From: a virus
Direction: 5' to 3' (one strand)
DNA: 61,335 nucleotides
Virus record (IMG/VR): IMGVR_UViG_3300008261_000017
Location: 1 to 61,335 of that record
Shown here: one piece after another, positions 35,830 through 55,525 of the stretch
How positions within the stretch are numbered: the stretch's first letter is position 1
Layout: each line of letters begins with the position of its first letter
The notes under the pieces: model-generated
The model's input: only the letters and a program-made list of their open reading frames with translations
Database searches by the model: none
What the model was told of the DNA's origin: nothing
Position numbers and translations under genes: made by a program

Positions 35830-35900
35830 GCGGACATGGTGTAGAGGTAACACGTCATCCTTCCAAGTTGAAATCACGAGTTCGATCCTCGTTGTCCGCT
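35830..35900 (+). tRNA. tRNA-Gly (anticodon TCC)
   Basis: 71 bases fold as a cloverleaf: acceptor GCGGACA/TGTCCGC, D stem GTGT/ACAC, anticodon loop CTTCCAA with TCC at 35862-35864, T arm ACGAG TTCGATC CTCGT, discriminator T. The anticodon stem (TCATC/GTTGA) has one T-T mismatch. CCA is not encoded. TATAAT at 35815-35820 lies just upstream. It reads GGA/GGG glycine codons, and GGA is common in the neighbouring genes. Confidence 0.93.
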
Positions 35901-47917: not shown

Positions 47918-49387
47918 ATGAAACTCAAACAACTGATGCTTGCACCTGTTGCTCTGGGTATGGTTGCTCCTGTTGCTGCGAATGCCGCAGACCTTAATAT
48001 GGCAGCAGTCAACCAATACAATACTTCTGAGCAGGTTACAAGTATTACTCAACTTTCTGATGTGCAACCCACTGATTGGGCATATCAGGCACTAAGCAAC
48101 CTCGTAGAACGTTATGGTTGCGTTGCTGGTTACCCCAATGGCACTTATGGTGGTGGTAAGGCAATGTCCCGTTATGAGGCAGCAGCACTTCTGAATGCTT
48201 GCCTTGATCGTGTGACTGAAGTTACTGATGAATTGAAGCGTCTTGCTGATGAATTCCGCAACGAACTGACTACTATTCAAGGTAGTGTTGCTAAACTCGA
48301 AGCTCAAGTTGGAGAATTGGAGGCAACTCAGTTCTCCACCACTACCAAACTGCGTGGTGAAGCAAACTTTGTTCTTGGTGGTGTTGATGATTATCAGACT
48401 AAGACTGGTGACATTACTCATACTGCATTCAATTACGATTTGCGTCTGAACCTGGATACTTCATTCACTGGCAAAGATCTGCTGAAAACTCGTCTGCGTT
48501 CTGCTAACTTCAGCAGCAATCCTTTCGGTTCTAGTTCGTCTATCTTCAAACTGGATAAGGCAGACAACACCACCAGTGAAGTTGGTAACAACGTAGTTAT
48601 CGACCGTCTGTATTATTCATTCCCTGCGTTCAACAACAAAGCAACCCTGACTGCTGGTGCTCTGGTTCGTAACACTGAGATGGCATGGATTCCTACTGCA
48701 TATAAGTCTGGCATCCTTGACTTCTTTGCTGTTGCAGGTACTCCTGGTGTGTACAACAAAGCAACTGGTTCTGGTTTTGGTGCTCAGTATGGCAAGAAGG
48801 GTCTTGTTGCTGGTGTAAACTATGTTGCACAAAATGGTCAAGACAGTTCTACTGGTGAGTTTGACAAGACTGGTGCTCTGAATACTCTGGCACAAATCGG
48901 TTATCGTGGCACTAACTGGGGTGCTGCTTTCGGTTATCGTTATGGCACCGAAGGCACTCGTGTTCGTACTTATAACGGTCTGAATGGTGCTTCTGGCACT
49001 CTGGTTCCTGGTCAAACCTCCAATGGTTATGCCCTGAACGCATACTGGCAACCCGAGAAAGCAGGTATTGTTCCTTCTATCTCTGCTGGTTATGGTTGGA
49101 ACACTGTAAGTGGTACTGTTAGTGATGCTACCGATAGTCAGTCTTGGTTTGCTGGTCTAACTTGGGATGACGTGTTTGTTGATGGCAACTCTGCTGGTGT
49201 TGCTATCGGTCAAGCACCTACTGGTGAGAACCTTGAGAAGTCCACGATGCTTGAAATCTTCTACAAGTATCAAGTATCTGACAACATTAGTGTCACTCCT
49301 GCTATCATCTACGGTAGTGACAACCAACGTCTTGCTAACAACTCCTCCAACTGGGGTGGTGTAATCCAAACTACCTTCAAGTTCTGA
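47918..49387 (+). CDS. Cyanobacterial-type SLH-domain outer-membrane porin
   Basis: 489 residues. Signal peptide (MKLKQLMLAPVALGMVAPVA, cut after ANA near 23), SLH domain about 45-100 (DVQPTDWAYQALSNLVERYG, then YPNGTYGGGKAMSRYEAAAL), short coiled coil about 113-148, then a beta-barrel of about 340 residues ending in TTFKF. This is the domain order of the major porins of marine Synechococcus (Som/iron-uptake-porin type). Codon use (CTG, GGC, CGT) differs from the AT-rich neighbours, suggesting acquisition from a host. It has its own early promoter and terminator. Confidence 0.93.
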   Translation: MKLKQLMLAPVALGMVAPVAANAADLNMAAVNQYNTSEQVTSITQLSDVQPTDWAYQALSNLVERYGCVAGYPNGTYGGGKAMSRYEAAALLNACLDRVTEVTDELKRLADEFRNELTTIQGSVAKLEAQVGELEATQFSTTTKLRGEANFVLGGVDDYQTKTGDITHTAFNYDLRLNLDTSFTGKDLLKTRLRSANFSSNPFGSSSSIFKLDKADNTTSEVGNNVVIDRLYYSFPAFNNKATLTAGALVRNTEMAWIPTAYKSGILDFFAVAGTPGVYNKATGSGFGAQYGKKGLVAGVNYVAQNGQDSSTGEFDKTGALNTLAQIGYRGTNWGAAFGYRYGTEGTRVRTYNGLNGASGTLVPGQTSNGYALNAYWQPEKAGIVPSISAGYGWNTVSGTVSDATDSQSWFAGLTWDDVFVDGNSAGVAIGQAPTGENLEKSTMLEIFYKYQVSDNISVTPAIIYGSDNQRLANNSSNWGGVIQTTFKF

Positions 49388-49419
49388 TAAGTCAGGAAAT
49401 CTAAATAAAATCTTAAGAG

Positions 49420-49443
49420 GGGTCTTGACAGACCCTTTTTTTT
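49420..49443 (+). terminator. Terminator whose loop is a -35 box
   Basis: Stem GGGTC/GACCC, loop exactly TTGACA, then eight T. Confidence 0.88.
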
Positions 49444-49453
49444 GCTATATACT
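49425..49453 (+). promoter_or_regulatory. Host sigma70-type promoter for hli
   Basis: TTGACA (49425-49430, in the terminator loop), 17-base spacer, TATACT (49448-49453). Confidence 0.88.
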
Positions 49454-49480
49454 TTTGTAATACTTCTTTACAAAAGTACA

Positions 49481-49690
49481 ATGACTGTTACAAAAAACGA
49501 GTTCGGGCAAATGAATATGTTTGCCAAAGAACCTTCGATGTATATGACCAAGGAAGACCTTGAACGTTATGGCATCGAACCCTATGCTGAGAAAGCGGAG
49601 AAAATGAATGGACGTTGGGCAATGCTCGGTATTGTTGCTGGTGCTATTTCTTATTCTCTCACTGGGCACCTCTTCTTTGGAGTAGTTTGA
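49481..49690 (+). CDS. hli: High-light-inducible protein (HLIP)
   Basis: 69 residues from ATG 49481. A polar N-terminus (FGQMNMFAKEPSMYMTKEDL) and one chlorophyll a/b-binding helix AEKMNGRWAMLGIVAGAISY, with the ExxNGRxAM motif. HLIPs bind pigments and protect photosystem II assembly and photosynthesis under light stress. First gene of the block hli-small-ferredoxin-hli-peroxiredoxin. Confidence 0.96.
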   Translation: MTVTKNEFGQMNMFAKEPSMYMTKEDLERYGIEPYAEKAEKMNGRWAMLGIVAGAISYSLTGHLFFGVV

Positions 49691-49693
49691 GAC

Positions 49694-49722
49694 TTGACAA
49701 TGACTTCACTTATCTTTACAAT
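49694..49722 (+). promoter_or_regulatory. Second host-type promoter, overlapping a small gene
   Basis: TTGACA (49694-49699), 17-base spacer, TACAAT (49717-49722). It lies over the start of the 28-residue gene and could drive ferredoxin separately. Confidence 0.6.
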
Positions 49723-49786
49723 GACATCCGTTGCCTTTTTTGTTTTACTGGCAGCATCTGTTGAAAAACTTTGCGAGACTTACTAA
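49700..49786 (+). CDS. Tiny membrane protein before ferredoxin
   Basis: 28 residues, [20 protein letters not shown] as one helix, then EKLCETY. TAATG overlap with the ferredoxin gene. The start overlaps a promoter, so it may be expressed only from the upstream hli promoter. No match known to me. Confidence 0.5.
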
Positions 49787-50079
49787 TGACCGTTTTTAAT
49801 GTCACTCTTCAATCTCCTGATGGCACCGAAACTACAATTCAATGTCAAGATGACCAATACATTCTTGAAGCAGCAGAAGAAGCAGGTATCGACCTTCCTT
49901 CTTCATGTAAAGCAGGTGCTTGCTCGGCTTGTGCTGGAAAACTCATCTCTGGCACCGTAGATAATGAGGAGCAATCATTCCTTGATGATGAGCAGCAGGC
50001 AGAAGGTTGGGTGCTGACTTGTGTAGCATATCCCACTAGTGACTGTGTTATTCTTACTGAGCAGGAAGAGAACCTGTGA
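49786..50079 (+). CDS. petF: Plant-type [2Fe-2S] ferredoxin
   Basis: 97 residues. The cluster ligands are C41, C46, C49 ([13 protein letters not shown]) and C79 ([10 protein letters not shown]). Photosynthetic electron carrier. In cyanophages it may feed electrons to biosynthetic reductases (for example pebS/pcyA bilin reductases) or the ribonucleotide supply; no bilin reductase is in this window. Confidence 0.96.
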
Positions 50080-50357
50080 GCAGTGCTAGCATGTTAGGGC
50101 AGTTTGCTATTGCTCTTGAAACACTTGGATGGGATAAAGATGATGACATCTCAGTTGAAATTGGTGGAGTAGCAGTAACAGGAACTGCTACCAGTCCAAA
50201 CGCAAACCCAAAATGGGCAAAACCTTTTGGAACAGTCAGTTATCAAAATGATGCTTTCATCGTAATTAAAAACAAATCAAGGAACCCAGTTGTTCCTTCA
50301 CAACCAAATCCTGAACTTAAACAACGACACCCTTATAATGGAACACTCACTAATTGA
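50076..50357 (+). CDS. Hypothetical protein after ferredoxin
   Basis: 93 residues from a GTG in a GTGA overlap; ATG 50091 is the other option. [20 protein letters not shown] and a Pro/Asn-rich tail. No domain recognised. Overlaps the next gene by 20 bases. Confidence 0.6.
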
Positions 50358-50523
50358 ACTGCTGACTTATTATGTAATCGTTGCTGCTCTGTTTATTGGA
50401 GCACCAGCAGTATTTTTTACAATCGTTTTCATGCCAGCACTTATGAATACAAAAGGTGCTGTGGTCGGGTATAAAATTCACCGAGATTATGGTGAAACAT
50501 CTATCTATTCTAAAGTAAAGTAA
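50338..50523 (+). CDS. Small membrane protein
   Basis: 61 residues from ATG 50338. One to two hydrophobic helices (LTYYVIVAALFIGAPAVFFT, about 9-28, continuing to IVFMPAL) and a polar tail (YKIHRDYGETSIYSKVK). The neighbours suggest a photosynthesis link, but it matches no photosystem subunit I can name. Confidence 0.55.
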   Translation: MEHSLIELLTYYVIVAALFIGAPAVFFTIVFMPALMNTKGAVVGYKIHRDYGETSIYSKVK

Positions 50524-50538
50524 TTAAGGAGAAAAACA

Positions 50539-50646
50539 ATGAACGAAAGAGCTGAGCGTATTAATGGATGGGCAGCAATGATTGGTATTGTCGCTGCTAT
50601 TGGCAGTTATGCCGCTACTGGTCAAATCATCCCTGGTATTTGGTGA
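50539..50646 (+). CDS. hli: Short high-light-inducible protein
   Basis: 35 residues, MNERAERINGWAAMIGIVAA then IGSYAATGQIIPGIW: only the pigment-binding helix, with AERINGxxAM. Good AGGAG site at 50527-50531. Second HLIP of the block. Confidence 0.93.
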   Translation: MNERAERINGWAAMIGIVAAIGSYAATGQIIPGIW

Positions 50647-50647
50647 T

Positions 50648-50791
50648 ATGAAGTGTAAAGTGCAGTTGTATGTGGCAGGTAAGGTCTTTCACGAAATCGT
50701 AGAGGCAAGAGATTATAAAGATGCAAGAGAAACTGCACTTGCACGAAATCCAAATGCCAAAGTTGTTGGAGTTACTGCTGTTTTTGATTGA
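50648..50791 (+). CDS. Small conserved protein
   Basis: 47 residues, MKCKVQLYVAGKVFHEIVEA then DYKDARETALARNPNAKVVG. A small alpha/beta protein common in T4-like cyanophages beside hli genes. Function unknown. Confidence 0.7.
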   Translation: MKCKVQLYVAGKVFHEIVEARDYKDARETALARNPNAKVVGVTAVFD

Positions 50792-50796
50792 TACTT

Positions 50797-51369
50797 ATGT
50801 TTAATATTTTTAAGAAAAAAGAGAATACTATGGAGGTTCCTGTGCGTAAAGAAAAATATATTATTCCTGCTGTTGATTTTGTGTTTCGTGAGAACAGTGA
50901 ATTTGTAACTCGTACTAGTGGTGAATTGTTTGATGGTAAACGAGTAATCATTTTCTCACTCCCTGGTGCTTTTACTCCAACTTGTTCTGCATATCAACTT
51001 CCTGGATTTGAAGATAGGTATGAGGAATTTAAAGTACTTGGAATTGATGAAATTTATTGCATCTCTGTCAATGATGGATTCGTGATGAATGCTTGGGCAA
51101 AGGAGCAAAATATTCAAAAAGTAAAACTGATTCCTGACGGTAATGCATACTTCACACGTTCTATGGGATATCTTGTCACTAAATCTAACCTTGGTTTTGG
51201 TGATAGGTCTTGGCGTTATGCTGCGGTCGTGGATAATGGAGTCATCGAGAAACTATTCGTTGAAGATGGTATGCGTGACAACGCAGACACCGACCCATAT
51301 GAAAAGAGCACACCAGAAAACGTTCTTGAGTATGTGAAGTCTACGGTGCGTGAAACTGCAACTGTTTGA
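50797..51369 (+). CDS. Peroxiredoxin (Prx5/type II-like)
   Basis: 190 residues from ATG 50797; ATG 50830 would drop 11. Peroxidatic Cys C63 in LPGAFTPTCSAYQLPGFEDR, followed by EIYCISVNDGFVMNAWAKEQ. It reduces peroxides with thiol help, so it likely protects photosynthesis and phage proteins during infection. A clear terminator follows, closing the photosynthesis/redox block. Confidence 0.93.
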   Translation: MFNIFKKKENTMEVPVRKEKYIIPAVDFVFRENSEFVTRTSGELFDGKRVIIFSLPGAFTPTCSAYQLPGFEDRYEEFKVLGIDEIYCISVNDGFVMNAWAKEQNIQKVKLIPDGNAYFTRSMGYLVTKSNLGFGDRSWRYAAVVDNGVIEKLFVEDGMRDNADTDPYEKSTPENVLEYVKSTVRETATV

Positions 51370-51851: not shown

Positions 51852-52523
51852 ATGACCTTAGATCTTCATAACTTTTTTAAATTTTATGATGATAAGAACC
51901 CCAACCACGTTGCTGCGGTTCAGTGGCTAGAGGACAATCTTCCAGAGAAGTTTTTGGATGATGCACAATCCGATTGGGTTAGTATTTTTAGAACTGCTCC
52001 ACCTACACCAGCAATACTGCCTGTTCCTTATTTTAATCAGGTAGATAATTATAGAGATGCACATAGAACTTGCAATTCTTCTTCTTGTGCAATGTGCCTT
52101 GCTTATTTAAAACCAGGTTCAATTAAAGGTGATGATGAGTACGTTAAGAAAGTATTCGCAATTGGTGATACAACTGACCATGCTGTGCAGACGAAAGTTC
52201 TTGCAGGTTATGGAGTCAAGTCACACTTTAGTTACAATTTATCTTTTGCTGATATTGATAAGAGTCTTGATGCTGGAAAACCCGTTGTTATTGGTATTCT
52301 TCACAGGGGTTCTTTATCTGCACCTACTGGTGGGCATATGTGTGTTGTAATCGGCAAGACTCCAGACGGTAAAGGGTATTACGTAAATGACCCATATGGT
52401 TCACTGAACGACAATTACAGTGGTCCAGTCACAAATGGTAAGAAGACCATTTACACCAAAGCAGTTCTTAAGCATCGTTGGTGCCCAGGTGGCAACGATG
52501 GTTGGGGTAGAATTTTTGATTGA
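51852..52523 (+). CDS. C39-like cysteine peptidase with shared N-terminal module
   Basis: 223 residues. Residues 1-47 (DLHNFFKFYDDKNPNHVAAV, QWLEDNLPEKF, ...DWVSIFR) are a module repeated at the start of the next protein. The rest is papain-like (peptidase_C39_2 type): PVPYFNQVDNYRDAH, likely nucleophile C74 in RTCNSSSCAM, His in GGHMCVVIGK and Asp in YYVNDPYGS. May cleave peptide bonds in peptidoglycan or host protein. Late promoter upstream; the lysozyme gene follows after 14 bases. Confidence 0.75.
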   Translation: MTLDLHNFFKFYDDKNPNHVAAVQWLEDNLPEKFLDDAQSDWVSIFRTAPPTPAILPVPYFNQVDNYRDAHRTCNSSSCAMCLAYLKPGSIKGDDEYVKKVFAIGDTTDHAVQTKVLAGYGVKSHFSYNLSFADIDKSLDAGKPVVIGILHRGSLSAPTGGHMCVVIGKTPDGKGYYVNDPYGSLNDNYSGPVTNGKKTIYTKAVLKHRWCPGGNDGWGRIFD

Positions 52524-52537
52524 TAGGAGAATAACAA

Positions 52538-52762
52538 ATGGCAAGAGTAGACTTACATAACTTTTTTAAGTTTTACGACGAGAGAAATCCAAGTCATATC
52601 AAAGCAGTTCAATGGTTAGAAGATAATCTGCCAGCAACATATCTTGAGGATAATGCTGATTGGGCAGATATTTTTAGAGGTAAAAAATCTGCTTCTGGTT
52701 CATCTGAACCTGCTGCTAGTGGAGATGTTTGCCCACATTGTGGCAAATCTTTGGGAAAGTAG
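52538..52762 (+). CDS. N-terminal module protein, zero-frame product of the frameshifted lysozyme gene
   Basis: 74 residues. DLHNFFKFYDERNPSHIKAV, QWLEDNLPATYL, ...DWADIFRG repeats the N-terminal module of the C39-like peptidase, then a Ser/Ala linker and CPHCGKSLGK. It stops at TAG 52760-52762 directly after the overlapping slippery heptamers TTTGGGA and GGGAAAG. A -1 shift there would continue into the lysozyme frame, giving a 245-residue fusion. The AGGAG at 52525-52529 precedes the ATG. Confidence 0.85.
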   Translation: MARVDLHNFFKFYDERNPSHIKAVQWLEDNLPATYLEDNADWADIFRGKKSASGSSEPAASGDVCPHCGKSLGK

Positions 52763-52795
52763 GAGGGGCAGCTCCTTCTACTTCTGGTGCTGCCC
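52750..52795 (+). promoter_or_regulatory. Programmed -1 ribosomal frameshift signal
   Basis: T-TTG-GGA (52750-52756) and G-GGA-AAG (52753-52759), both in zero-frame phase, then the stop TAG. A 6-base spacer follows, then a perfect 7-bp stem GGGCAGC (52766-52772)/GCTGCCC (52789-52795). GGGAAAG is the slippery site of the lambda G-GT frameshift. Confidence 0.85.
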
Positions 52796-53274
52796 AAACT
52801 AGTGGTGATGATGTCCCAATGATGGGCATTAAATTAATTAAAGAATTTGAAGGATGTCATTTAAATGCTTATCCCGACCCTCTAACAGGTGGACTTCCAA
52901 TTACTATTGGTTGGGGTTCAACAAGAGATAAGAATGGTAAACCATTCCAAATGGGTGATAGTATCACTCAACAAGAAGCTGATGAGTTATTAATCAGTCA
53001 GTGTAAGAATCAGTTTCTTCCAGCACTTAGAAAAATCCCACATTGGAATGAGATGTCAGATGGAAAAAGAGGCGCTCTGCTCAGCTTTGCTTATAATCTC
53101 GGTGCTGGTTTCTACGGTGGTGATAACTTTAATACTATTACTAAACGCCTAAAGAATAAAGAATGGGACTTAGTTCCCGATGCTCTTTATCTTTACCGTA
53201 ATCCTGGTTCAAATGTAGAAGCAGGTTTGGCACGTAGAAGAAAAGCAGAAGGAGAATCTTGGAAAAAGGGATGA
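52759..53274 (+). CDS. GH24 lysozyme (endolysin), -1 frame
   Basis: 171 residues entered by the -1 shift (VGGAAPSTSGAAQTSGDD linker, then the enzyme). GH24 catalytic region IKLIKEFEGCHLNAYPDP with the Glu, then LPITIGWGST. Further LLSFAYNLGAGFY and the GLARRRKAEGE end are typical. No good ribosome site exists for stand-alone synthesis; ATGs at 52819/52822 (MMGIKLI) are the only in-frame candidates. It cleaves peptidoglycan for lysis or, as a fusion with the N-terminal module, may be anchored in the particle. Confidence 0.88.
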   Translation, partial: VGGAAPSTSGAAQTSGDDVPMMGIKLIKEFEGCHLNAYPDPLTGGLPITIGWGSTRDKNGKPFQMGDSITQQEADELLISQCKNQFLPALRKIPHWNEMSDGKRGALLSFAYNLGAGFYGGDNFNTITKRLKNKEWDLVPDALYLYRNPGSNVEAGLARRRKAEGESWKKG

Positions 53275-53377: not shown

Positions 53378-55525
53378 ATGTCTAACTACACGCAAAGGGC
53401 GCTGTCACTAGCGTCTGCGCTTCTTATTGGAGTGCCAACCGCAGCATTCGCAGAAACAATATCTGGAACAGATTTTGAGACTGGAGACACTTCGGGATGG
53501 AACACTGGAACTCAAACTGGAACATTGGATAGTACTATCACGGGAGGAGGGACTGGTGTTAGTGTCGTAGATAATCCAGTTATCTTCAATGCTGATTCTT
53601 TTCAGGCAATAGGAAGTCCAACATTACAAGATGGTTCTCCTAATCCATATTATGCACCCGCAGTAACACCAACCACTTGGGAGTTTGCTCCTTACGGAAC
53701 TGCTGGTGCTGCATTACAACCAAACGGTCAACAAACATTTAACCAAGCAACAGAAGCACTTGGTTTAACACCAGAACAAAATCAAGCAATAAGAGACCTT
53801 CTTATTCAACAACAGCAAGCATCAGGACTTGGAAATCCAAACCCAACTGATGCTGCTTGGATTACAAAATCAGTCACCTTAGAGACTGGAAAAATCTATA
53901 CAATGTCTTGGAACTACATTGGAACTGATTATGTTCCATTCAATGATGGTTCCATTACTTCACTTGTTTATCAAGGTTCAGGTTCTTCTCCATCAGTAAC
54001 AGTTAATAACCAACTTCAGAACTATGCGTTACTTGGATTTACTAATCCAGGAACAGGTGATTATTCTACAGGTTCTTTTGGTTCTACTGGATGGCAGTAT
54101 TCAACTTATCAGGTAGGTGCTGATGGTGATTATCTCTTAGGATTTGCAGTATTCAACCTTGGAGATACAGCATTATCACCAGTTCTTTTAGTTGATAGTC
54201 AACCTGGAACTACAACAGCAAACGGAGAGACATTCACTCCTGTTGCTCCAAACAATCCAGATGCACCATCTGTTGATGAGGTAGCACCAACTCCAACACC
54301 AGAACCAGAACCCACACCAGAACCAGAACCAACTCCAGAACCAACCCCTGAACCTACACCAGAACCAGAGCCAACTCCTGAACCAACTCCTGAACCTACA
54401 CCAGAACCAACTCCTGAACCTACACCAGAACCAACTCCTGAACCTACACCAGAACCAACTCCTGAACCTACACCAGAACCAACTCCTGAACCTACACCAG
54501 AACCAGAACCACCAACATTATTAAACTCTGTGACTGTTCCTGCACCAGGACTTCCAGTTGTTGTTACCACAGAAGTAACTCATACGGCAACAGAAGAAAA
54601 TGGAGTTCAGAAGATTAGGAGAGATGCGGAAATTACAACTAAAACTCCACTATTGAAGCAAGATACTTATAGTGATGGAACTGTTGTAGCATCATTAATT
54701 CTTTCTGTTGATACTGAAAATAAGCATAATGTTATTTCTGGTCGTGTAGATCAACATGAAGTTTTAGATAAGATTGGTGGTGGATTACAAAATCTGTTTA
54801 TCTACGAACCAACTGAGCCAAGCACAGACAGAGTAAGAGTATTTAATAACAACTATTATGCATGGTCTTCTGGTGAGAATGGATACAGTGGTAAGACTTT
54901 AATCATTGGTGGTGGATTAGAGATTGATATTAAACCAACTTGGACTGTTGGTGCTCAATACAATAATATGAATATTGATTTAGGTGGAGTTGATAGTACT
55001 TCTAAACTTCTGAAAAATCATTATGGAATATTCAATATGTTCCGTGGAAATACATTTTCACTCCTAACTAATGCTGGATTTACCCAGAACAAATATAAAG
55101 TTAAGAGAACAGTTCAAGGTATCTTTGGAAATGAAAGTTCATCACAGGGAAAAGAGTGGTTTGTAAATAACAAACTATTCTGGCACCTCAATAAGAATAT
55201 AACTCCATTTGTTGGATACACTGTTGGTAACTATCAGAGAGATGGGTTTACTGAAAGTGGATCAATTATATCAAGAAGAACTGTTGATGCCATTAATGAA
55301 ACTTCACACTCTGGTGAGGTGGGTCTAAATATTTCACACCGTTTTGGTGGAAAGAAAAAGGACTTATTTGGAATGGGTGTTGCTGGTTCTTATGATACTA
55401 CTGGAATGATTGAAGTATCCGCTTCTGCTGATTATAAGGAGATGGTCATTATTGAAGGAATACATCAAATCAATGATGGTGTTTCTAATACAGCAGTTTC
55501 CGCAAAAGTGAAATTTAAGTTCTGA
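53378..55525 (+). CDS. Autotransporter-like outer-membrane protein
   Basis: 715 residues. Signal peptide to about 25 (SLASALLIGVPTAAFA), a beta-rich passenger (about 26-300: ISGTDFETGDTSGWNTGTQT, IYTMSWNYIGTDY), then a stiff Thr-Pro-Glu-Pro repeat spacer (about 304-377). The C-terminal domain is barrel-like: about 300 residues with alternating strands (GGGLEIDIKPTWTVGAQYNN, HYGIFNMFRG, FVGYTVGNY, GLNISHRFGG) and a final KVKFKF. Signal + passenger + linker + barrel with terminal Phe is the plan of a type V secretion protein. Rare for a phage. Expressed late. Confidence 0.7.
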   Translation: MSNYTQRALSLASALLIGVPTAAFAETISGTDFETGDTSGWNTGTQTGTLDSTITGGGTGVSVVDNPVIFNADSFQAIGSPTLQDGSPNPYYAPAVTPTTWEFAPYGTAGAALQPNGQQTFNQATEALGLTPEQNQAIRDLLIQQQQASGLGNPNPTDAAWITKSVTLETGKIYTMSWNYIGTDYVPFNDGSITSLVYQGSGSSPSVTVNNQLQNYALLGFTNPGTGDYSTGSFGSTGWQYSTYQVGADGDYLLGFAVFNLGDTALSPVLLVDSQPGTTTANGETFTPVAPNNPDAPSVDEVAPTPTPEPEPTPEPEPTPEPTPEPTPEPEPTPEPTPEPTPEPTPEPTPEPTPEPTPEPTPEPTPEPTPEPTPEPEPPTLLNSVTVPAPGLPVVVTTEVTHTATEENGVQKIRRDAEITTKTPLLKQDTYSDGTVVASLILSVDTENKHNVISGRVDQHEVLDKIGGGLQNLFIYEPTEPSTDRVRVFNNNYYAWSSGENGYSGKTLIIGGGLEIDIKPTWTVGAQYNNMNIDLGGVDSTSKLLKNHYGIFNMFRGNTFSLLTNAGFTQNKYKVKRTVQGIFGNESSSQGKEWFVNNKLFWHLNKNITPFVGYTVGNYQRDGFTESGSIISRRTVDAINETSHSGEVGLNISHRFGGKKKDLFGMGVAGSYDTTGMIEVSASADYKEMVIIEGIHQINDGVSNTAVSAKVKFKF
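54290..54509 (+). repeat. Thr-Pro-Glu-Pro coding repeats
   Basis: Tandem 24-base units (encoding EPTPEPTP) with small variants. A spacer between passenger and barrel; prone to length change. Confidence 0.95.

Follow-up and report, generated by a model that had tools for sequence, protein, structure and literature searches.

Programmed -1 ribosomal frameshifting very probably controls a cyanophage endolysin gene, a reading to which we assign a probability of about 0.93 on the strength of sequence comparison. The gene lies in a cyanophage fragment, the 61-kb IMG/VR virus record that was analysed whole and that we refer to as the window. The best-known cases of -1 frameshifting in tailed phages are tail assembly genes; the well-conserved frameshift signal described here belongs to the gene of a lysis enzyme. 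That phages make use of -1 frameshifting is already known, and what we add is a conserved putative cassette for it in a cyanophage GH24 endolysin gene.

Results

The window carries T4-like replication genes (DNA polymerase, a DnaB-like helicase and NrdA) together with cyanophage-type auxiliary genes, and its lysis region is matched by Kyanoviridae phages of Synechococcus. On their upstream side, the lysis genes adjoin SLH/porin-like, high-light-inducible protein, ferredoxin and peroxiredoxin-like genes (47918-51369, + strand), and the order is similar in phages DSL-LC02 and DSL-LC03. At 53378-55525 (+ strand) a 715-aa protein is encoded, with a long PTPEPE-type repeat ahead of its C-terminal region. 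This protein has no PHROG match; the corresponding neighbour in DSL-LC03 is annotated as an autotransporter beta-barrel protein.

Table 1. Positions of the frameshift gene, its signals and the adjacent peptidase gene in the window
Feature	Position	Strand	Observation
Upstream C39-like peptidase gene, N-terminal module fused in frame; second putative endolysin gene	51852..52523	+	Homology
Shine-Dalgarno AGGAG of zero-frame ORF	52525..52529	+	Good site, 8 nt ahead of ATG 52538
Zero-frame ORF, 74 aa	52538..52762	+	ATG...GGA AAG TAG
CPHCGK knuckle codons	52730..52747	+	Amino acids constant in frameshift genes, synonymous sites variable
Slippery heptamer G-GGA-AAG, phase X-XXY-YYZ	52753..52759	+	Identical in all 23 contexts and all 28 full genes
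-1 frame part of fusion: VGGAAPSTSGAAQTSGDD linker and GH24 lysozyme	52759..53274	+	Open frame; 245-aa fusion in all
Zero-frame stop TAG, directly 3' of heptamer	52760..52762	+	TAA or TAG in relatives
Stimulatory stem, 5' arm GGGCAGC	52766..52772	+	7/7 pairs at +6 in 23/23 contexts; compensatory pairs
Stimulatory stem, 3' arm GCTGCCC	52789..52795	+	7/7 pairs at +6 in 23/23 contexts; compensatory pairs
Phage_lysozyme domain (PF00959)	52840..53250	+	No other PF00959 match in the window

An earlier reading made from the sequence only had described a zero frame that ends in slip phase on GGGAAAG and is stopped at once, followed after a 6-nt spacer by a perfect, GC-rich 7-bp hairpin. Each of these elements is read directly in the window, and the hairpin has a 16-nt loop (Table 1). 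Among the 824 XXXYYYZ heptamers (Y = A or T) on the two strands of the window, a 7-bp GC-rich stem at +6 occurs with this GGGAAAG alone, which has the adjacent stop as well. The folding energy of the hairpin alone is modest (MFE z-score -1.7 to -2.0); the weight of the case lies with the comparative evidence. There is no Rfam match near the slip site. A role of the hairpin as a terminator was considered and rejected; the hairpin is absent from the terminator scan listing. Elsewhere, at 35830-35900 (+ strand), the window encodes a tRNA-Gly(UCC) that decodes GGA and GGG, the codons that occupy the P site prior to and following the slip; this match may be coincidence.

From the slip site, the -1 frame is open through the linker into a complete lysozyme, as had been claimed, and the sizes of 74 and 245 residues proposed for the two predicted products agree with the translations. 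The product of the -1 frame matches PF00959 at 79.9 bits against a cut-off of 22.3, and in FEG...YPDPLTGGLPITIGWG it keeps the E, D and T of the E...D...T pattern, which we take from family knowledge to be the GH24 residues. With the domain above cut-off and this pattern intact, the enzyme belongs to GH24; solved GH24 structures are related to its lysozyme domain (E 6e-15). The 245-aa fusion aligns end to end with the in-frame proteins of DSL-LC02 and DSL-LC03. In the window and in five other frameshift contigs (23-139 kb, all of them fragments), the frameshift gene is the sole PF00959 gene.

To find relatives, we scanned 2.9 million viral contigs with the degenerate pattern CPHCGK-x-(NTN)-G-K-stop, in which the Gly and Lys codons were free (GGN AAR). 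The scans returned 13 contigs with TAG and 24 with TAA, all of which contain the frameshift lysozyme gene, its lysozyme part being encoded in the -1 frame. All 37 of these other contigs read NTG GGA AAG followed at once by TAA or TAG. Dropping the stop from the pattern added one contig only, with an unrelated zinc-ribbon gene; within the sampled viral contigs, the motif in the frameshift lysozyme family therefore always stands directly before a stop. An exact search with the slip region brought up one relative (L090), ~88-90% identical over the gene, which differs from the window at a single loop base across slip site, stop and stem. The cassette was not found in cultured phages of the collections searched.

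The slip codons are frozen. Across 28 distinct full genes they read GGA in 28 and AAG in 28, the overall usage in the same genes being 199/753 (~26%) for GGA and 246/533 (~46%) for AAG, and the CPHCG codons just 5' of the slip site are freely variable. Codons -1 to +1 show a synonymous difference of 0.00, and the values stay low through the stem-forming linker, where they are noisier because fewer sequence pairs share the same amino acid; they are back to about 0.5-0.6 just past the stem and lie at ~0.6 from +20. The heptamer TTTGGGA, which the sequence-only reading had taken for a second slip site, is present in the window (52750-52756) but is not conserved: relatives mostly have (C/T)CTGGGAAAG at this position, with CTGGGA in most members. 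GGGAAAG is thus the working slip site.

The stem is equally constant in its placement. In 23 of 23 distinct contexts, all seven pairs form exactly 6 nt past the heptamer, each time with at least five GC pairs; stems at other offsets are rarer (next best, 18/23 contexts), and the shuffled rate is 0.3%. Two stem classes exist, GGGCAGC/GCTGCCC and GCGGCAG/CTGCCGC. The first contains two fully compensatory pairs, G-C to A-U (L096) and C-G to U-A (L093), a degree of covariation that 12 of 500 shuffles equal, as is expected with only seven sequences. In the second class the changes are one-sided (G-U), keeping the pairing without covariation. A -1 frameshift signal should combine an X-XXY-YYZ heptamer in zero-frame phase, a stimulatory RNA structure at 5-9 nt spacing and selection on the signal. 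All three were found, the structure being the 7-bp stem at exactly 6 nt and the selection appearing as synonymous conservation and frozen slip codons. Related phages had been named beforehand as the place to look for conservation of heptamer and stem, and this bore out: with GGA AAG TAR in 37/37, the stem in 23/23 and covariation besides, the comparison shows a slip signal that is maintained by selection.

The 74-aa product, which runs MARVDLHNFFKFYDERNPSHIKAVQWLEDNLP...GDVCPHCGKSLGK, is laid out as an N-terminal module of ~47 residues, a variable linker and CPHCGKSLGK, then TAG. Homology links the module to the N-terminal part of the upstream C39-peptidase gene and also to in-frame endolysins of cultured cyanophages. 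In S-CREM1, a single gene (L005 1476-2657) encodes lysozyme, module and C39 peptidase, the reverse order of the window's separate genes. The presence of the module in the C39 peptidase gene and in S-CREM1 is consistent with a role in targeting or assembly that these proteins share. In Pfam, the module matched no family above cut-off, and a PDB sequence search with it returned nothing credible. The predicted structure of the 74-aa product is a poor model (pLDDT 57), with which a PDB fold search gave no matches, and that of an in-frame homologue is of low confidence (pLDDT 46).

Every frameshift gene that was recovered has the CPHCGK(S/P)LGK tail, a uniformity to be read in light of the degenerate scan patterns (with TAG, with TAA and without stop), which required CPHCGK by construction. 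Module-based search patterns yielded no frameshift gene lacking the tail either, with a ranking that favoured matches including it. Among the frameshift genes the amino acids of the knuckle are fixed while their synonymous sites vary and the adjoining linker drifts, which suggests protein-level selection on the tail. Both products carry the knuckle, which is encoded 5' of the slip site.

A second form of the gene is common. In about 80 distinct relatives, including those of the cultured phages DSL-LC02 and DSL-LC03, module, linker and lysozyme are encoded in one frame without the frameshift cassette, and the CPHCGK knuckle is absent. One in-frame gene (L034 2501-3217) has a different knuckle in its linker, CSKCGRG, and groups with the frameshift member L184 in the lysozyme tree. 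On the lysozyme-domain tree the frameshift and in-frame states require 9 changes, at least 6 of them forced by well-supported branches, and recombination between the gene halves could lie behind part of these changes. The N-module tree, too short and poorly resolved, does not distinguish a single from a multiple origin of the cassette. In S-CRM01 (L007, NC_015569; ~2250-2343), the annotated endolysin ends in VLKEKDGTMSPQL and a stop, and another frame continues the lysozyme (KRKRWNYVPSALMLYRNPGSNVELGLARRR); this C-terminal frame break is an indel, an error or another frameshift.

Discussion

In the model that we favor, translation would start at ATG 52538 and produce the N-terminal module with its CPHCGK tail. 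At G-GGA-AAG, with the stem ahead, some ribosomes would slip back one base, from GGA-AAG to GGG-AAA, miss the TAG and enter the lysozyme, giving the 245-aa fusion. The remaining ribosomes would terminate and release the 74-aa module. Slippage at GGGAAAG, at whatever frequency, is predicted here from sequence; in E. coli, G_GGA_AAG has been reported to be very prone to shifting (PMC5009743).

Other ways of making, or of appearing to make, these products were weighed. Given that DSL-LC02, DSL-LC03 and the ~80 distinct metagenomic genes are in frame, one could suspect that a lysozyme gene in a single frame was wrongly sequenced or assembled, or that it recently acquired an indel. The out-of-frame arrangement recurs, however, in 37 other contigs that keep heptamer, stop and stem despite many nucleotide differences, and the in-frame genes lack the whole cassette rather than differing by one base. 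Comparison with the 37 further contigs rules out an error or a chance indel, and we regard this explanation as scarcely credible. In-frame relatives without the heptamer had been named in advance as evidence against frameshifting. They do exist, but as a second, alternating gene state and not as proof of error. Slippage of RNA polymerase in place of the ribosome would be expected to give the same two products, but the site is GGG-AAA, with no long run of A or T. The combination of a phased heptamer, a stop and a stem spaced 6 nt away agrees with slippage of the ribosome, and the polymerase is a most improbable source of the fusion.

Two separate genes would also account for a lysozyme product, were it to start internally (at ATGATG 52819-52824 or TTG 52729) by reinitiation or coupling after the TAG. 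The sequence-only reading had held that the lysozyme has no ribosome site of its own. This stands in that no start is conserved, but not in the strict sense: the -1 frame has TTG 52729, preceded by a weak GGAG, and ATGATG, without a Shine-Dalgarno sequence. An ATG pair does lie just ahead of the lysozyme domain in most members, yet L110 and L184 lack it, roughly one member in two is devoid of a -1 frame start ahead of the stop and most have no Shine-Dalgarno sequence. With no start common to the frameshift members, internal initiation was rejected. It would leave the frozen GGA AAG, the fixed-spacing stem and the open -1 linker unexplained, and we consider it very unlikely.

If ribosomal frameshifting is accepted, the short product may be a separate module subunit, made together with the enzyme and probably in excess, that pairs with the fusion through the module and the CPHC knuckle; we would put the chances of this a little short of even. 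The N-terminal module cannot be made from an internal start, and termination combined with frameshifting can supply extra copies of it. At the least, the frameshift design would keep the dose of lysozyme lower than the dose of the module, and the retention of the knuckle at the amino-acid level suggests that the short form is probably not mere waste. Against such a role, one CPHC pair by itself supplies no more than half of a zinc site. It is tempting to speculate that the cassette is a translational switch from a one-chain to a two-subunit endolysin, in which the 74-aa and 245-aa products are joined by a zinc site shared between their two CPHC knuckles, at a ratio set by the frameshift rate, with the whole cassette gained and lost by recombination. 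We offer this as a tentative scheme, and one that we think may well be wrong. The 74-aa product could instead be a mere by-product of real frameshifting, the aim being only a low or condition-dependent lysozyme dose until lysis. Slip site, stop and stem suffice for dose control, the frameshift gene is the sole PF00959 gene in the six contigs noted above, and the in-frame relatives indicate that the short product is not always needed. The tail in all frameshift genes found (although the scan patterns required it) and its signs of protein-level selection speak against a by-product, and we hold that reading, too, at clearly less than even odds.

Close relatives in both states provide a natural experiment on why a phage lysozyme would be rationed or multimerised. 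Such genes are easily missed in metagenomes, since annotating the two pieces separately leaves a small ORF with no explanation and a lysozyme that lacks a start.

GGGAAAG is the slippery class of the -1 frameshift in the lambda G-GT tail assembly chaperone. The window gene resembles that system in heptamer class, in the -1 shift and in its short and C-terminally extended products. Unlike lambda G-GT, it encodes a GH24 endolysin, with the stop directly after the slip and a conserved GC-rich stem 6 nt downstream, and both frameshift and in-frame states occur among its close relatives. The endolysins of Synechococcus phages DSL-LC02 (WJZ48312.1) and DSL-LC03 (WJZ47856.1) are 84-85% identical to it, with the same module, linker and lysozyme, but are encoded in a single frame without the CPHCGK, heptamer and stem cassette.

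Among lysins, Shearman reportedly described frameshifting in a lactococcal phage lysin in 1994, which would share with the window gene a frameshift in a phage lysin but comes from a different phage type. Lysins are named in the PRFect study as one of the kinds of gene 'known to contain a frameshift', with a citation of the lactococcal phage lysin (PMC10885494), and in the Ms6 paper frameshifting was speculated for LysA. Conserved frameshift cassettes in endolysins of the GH24 family or of cyanophages did not turn up in the literature searched, which lay largely outside subscription journals.

Short endolysin forms have precedents of another kind. In the CTP1L and CD27L endolysins, a short form makes oligomers with the full-length enzyme and modulates lysis (PMC4777826), and a secondary translation product of the phi2638A endolysin likewise binds the full form and tunes lysis (PMC12203907). 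As in these cases, one gene of the window is predicted to yield a full endolysin and a short form. Theirs arises from an internal in-frame start and comprises the C-terminal part, whereas that of the window would arise by termination and comprises the N-terminal part, so that the comparison is functional only. The window's design would be the mirror image of endolysins supplied with extra copies of a C-terminal wall-binding domain.
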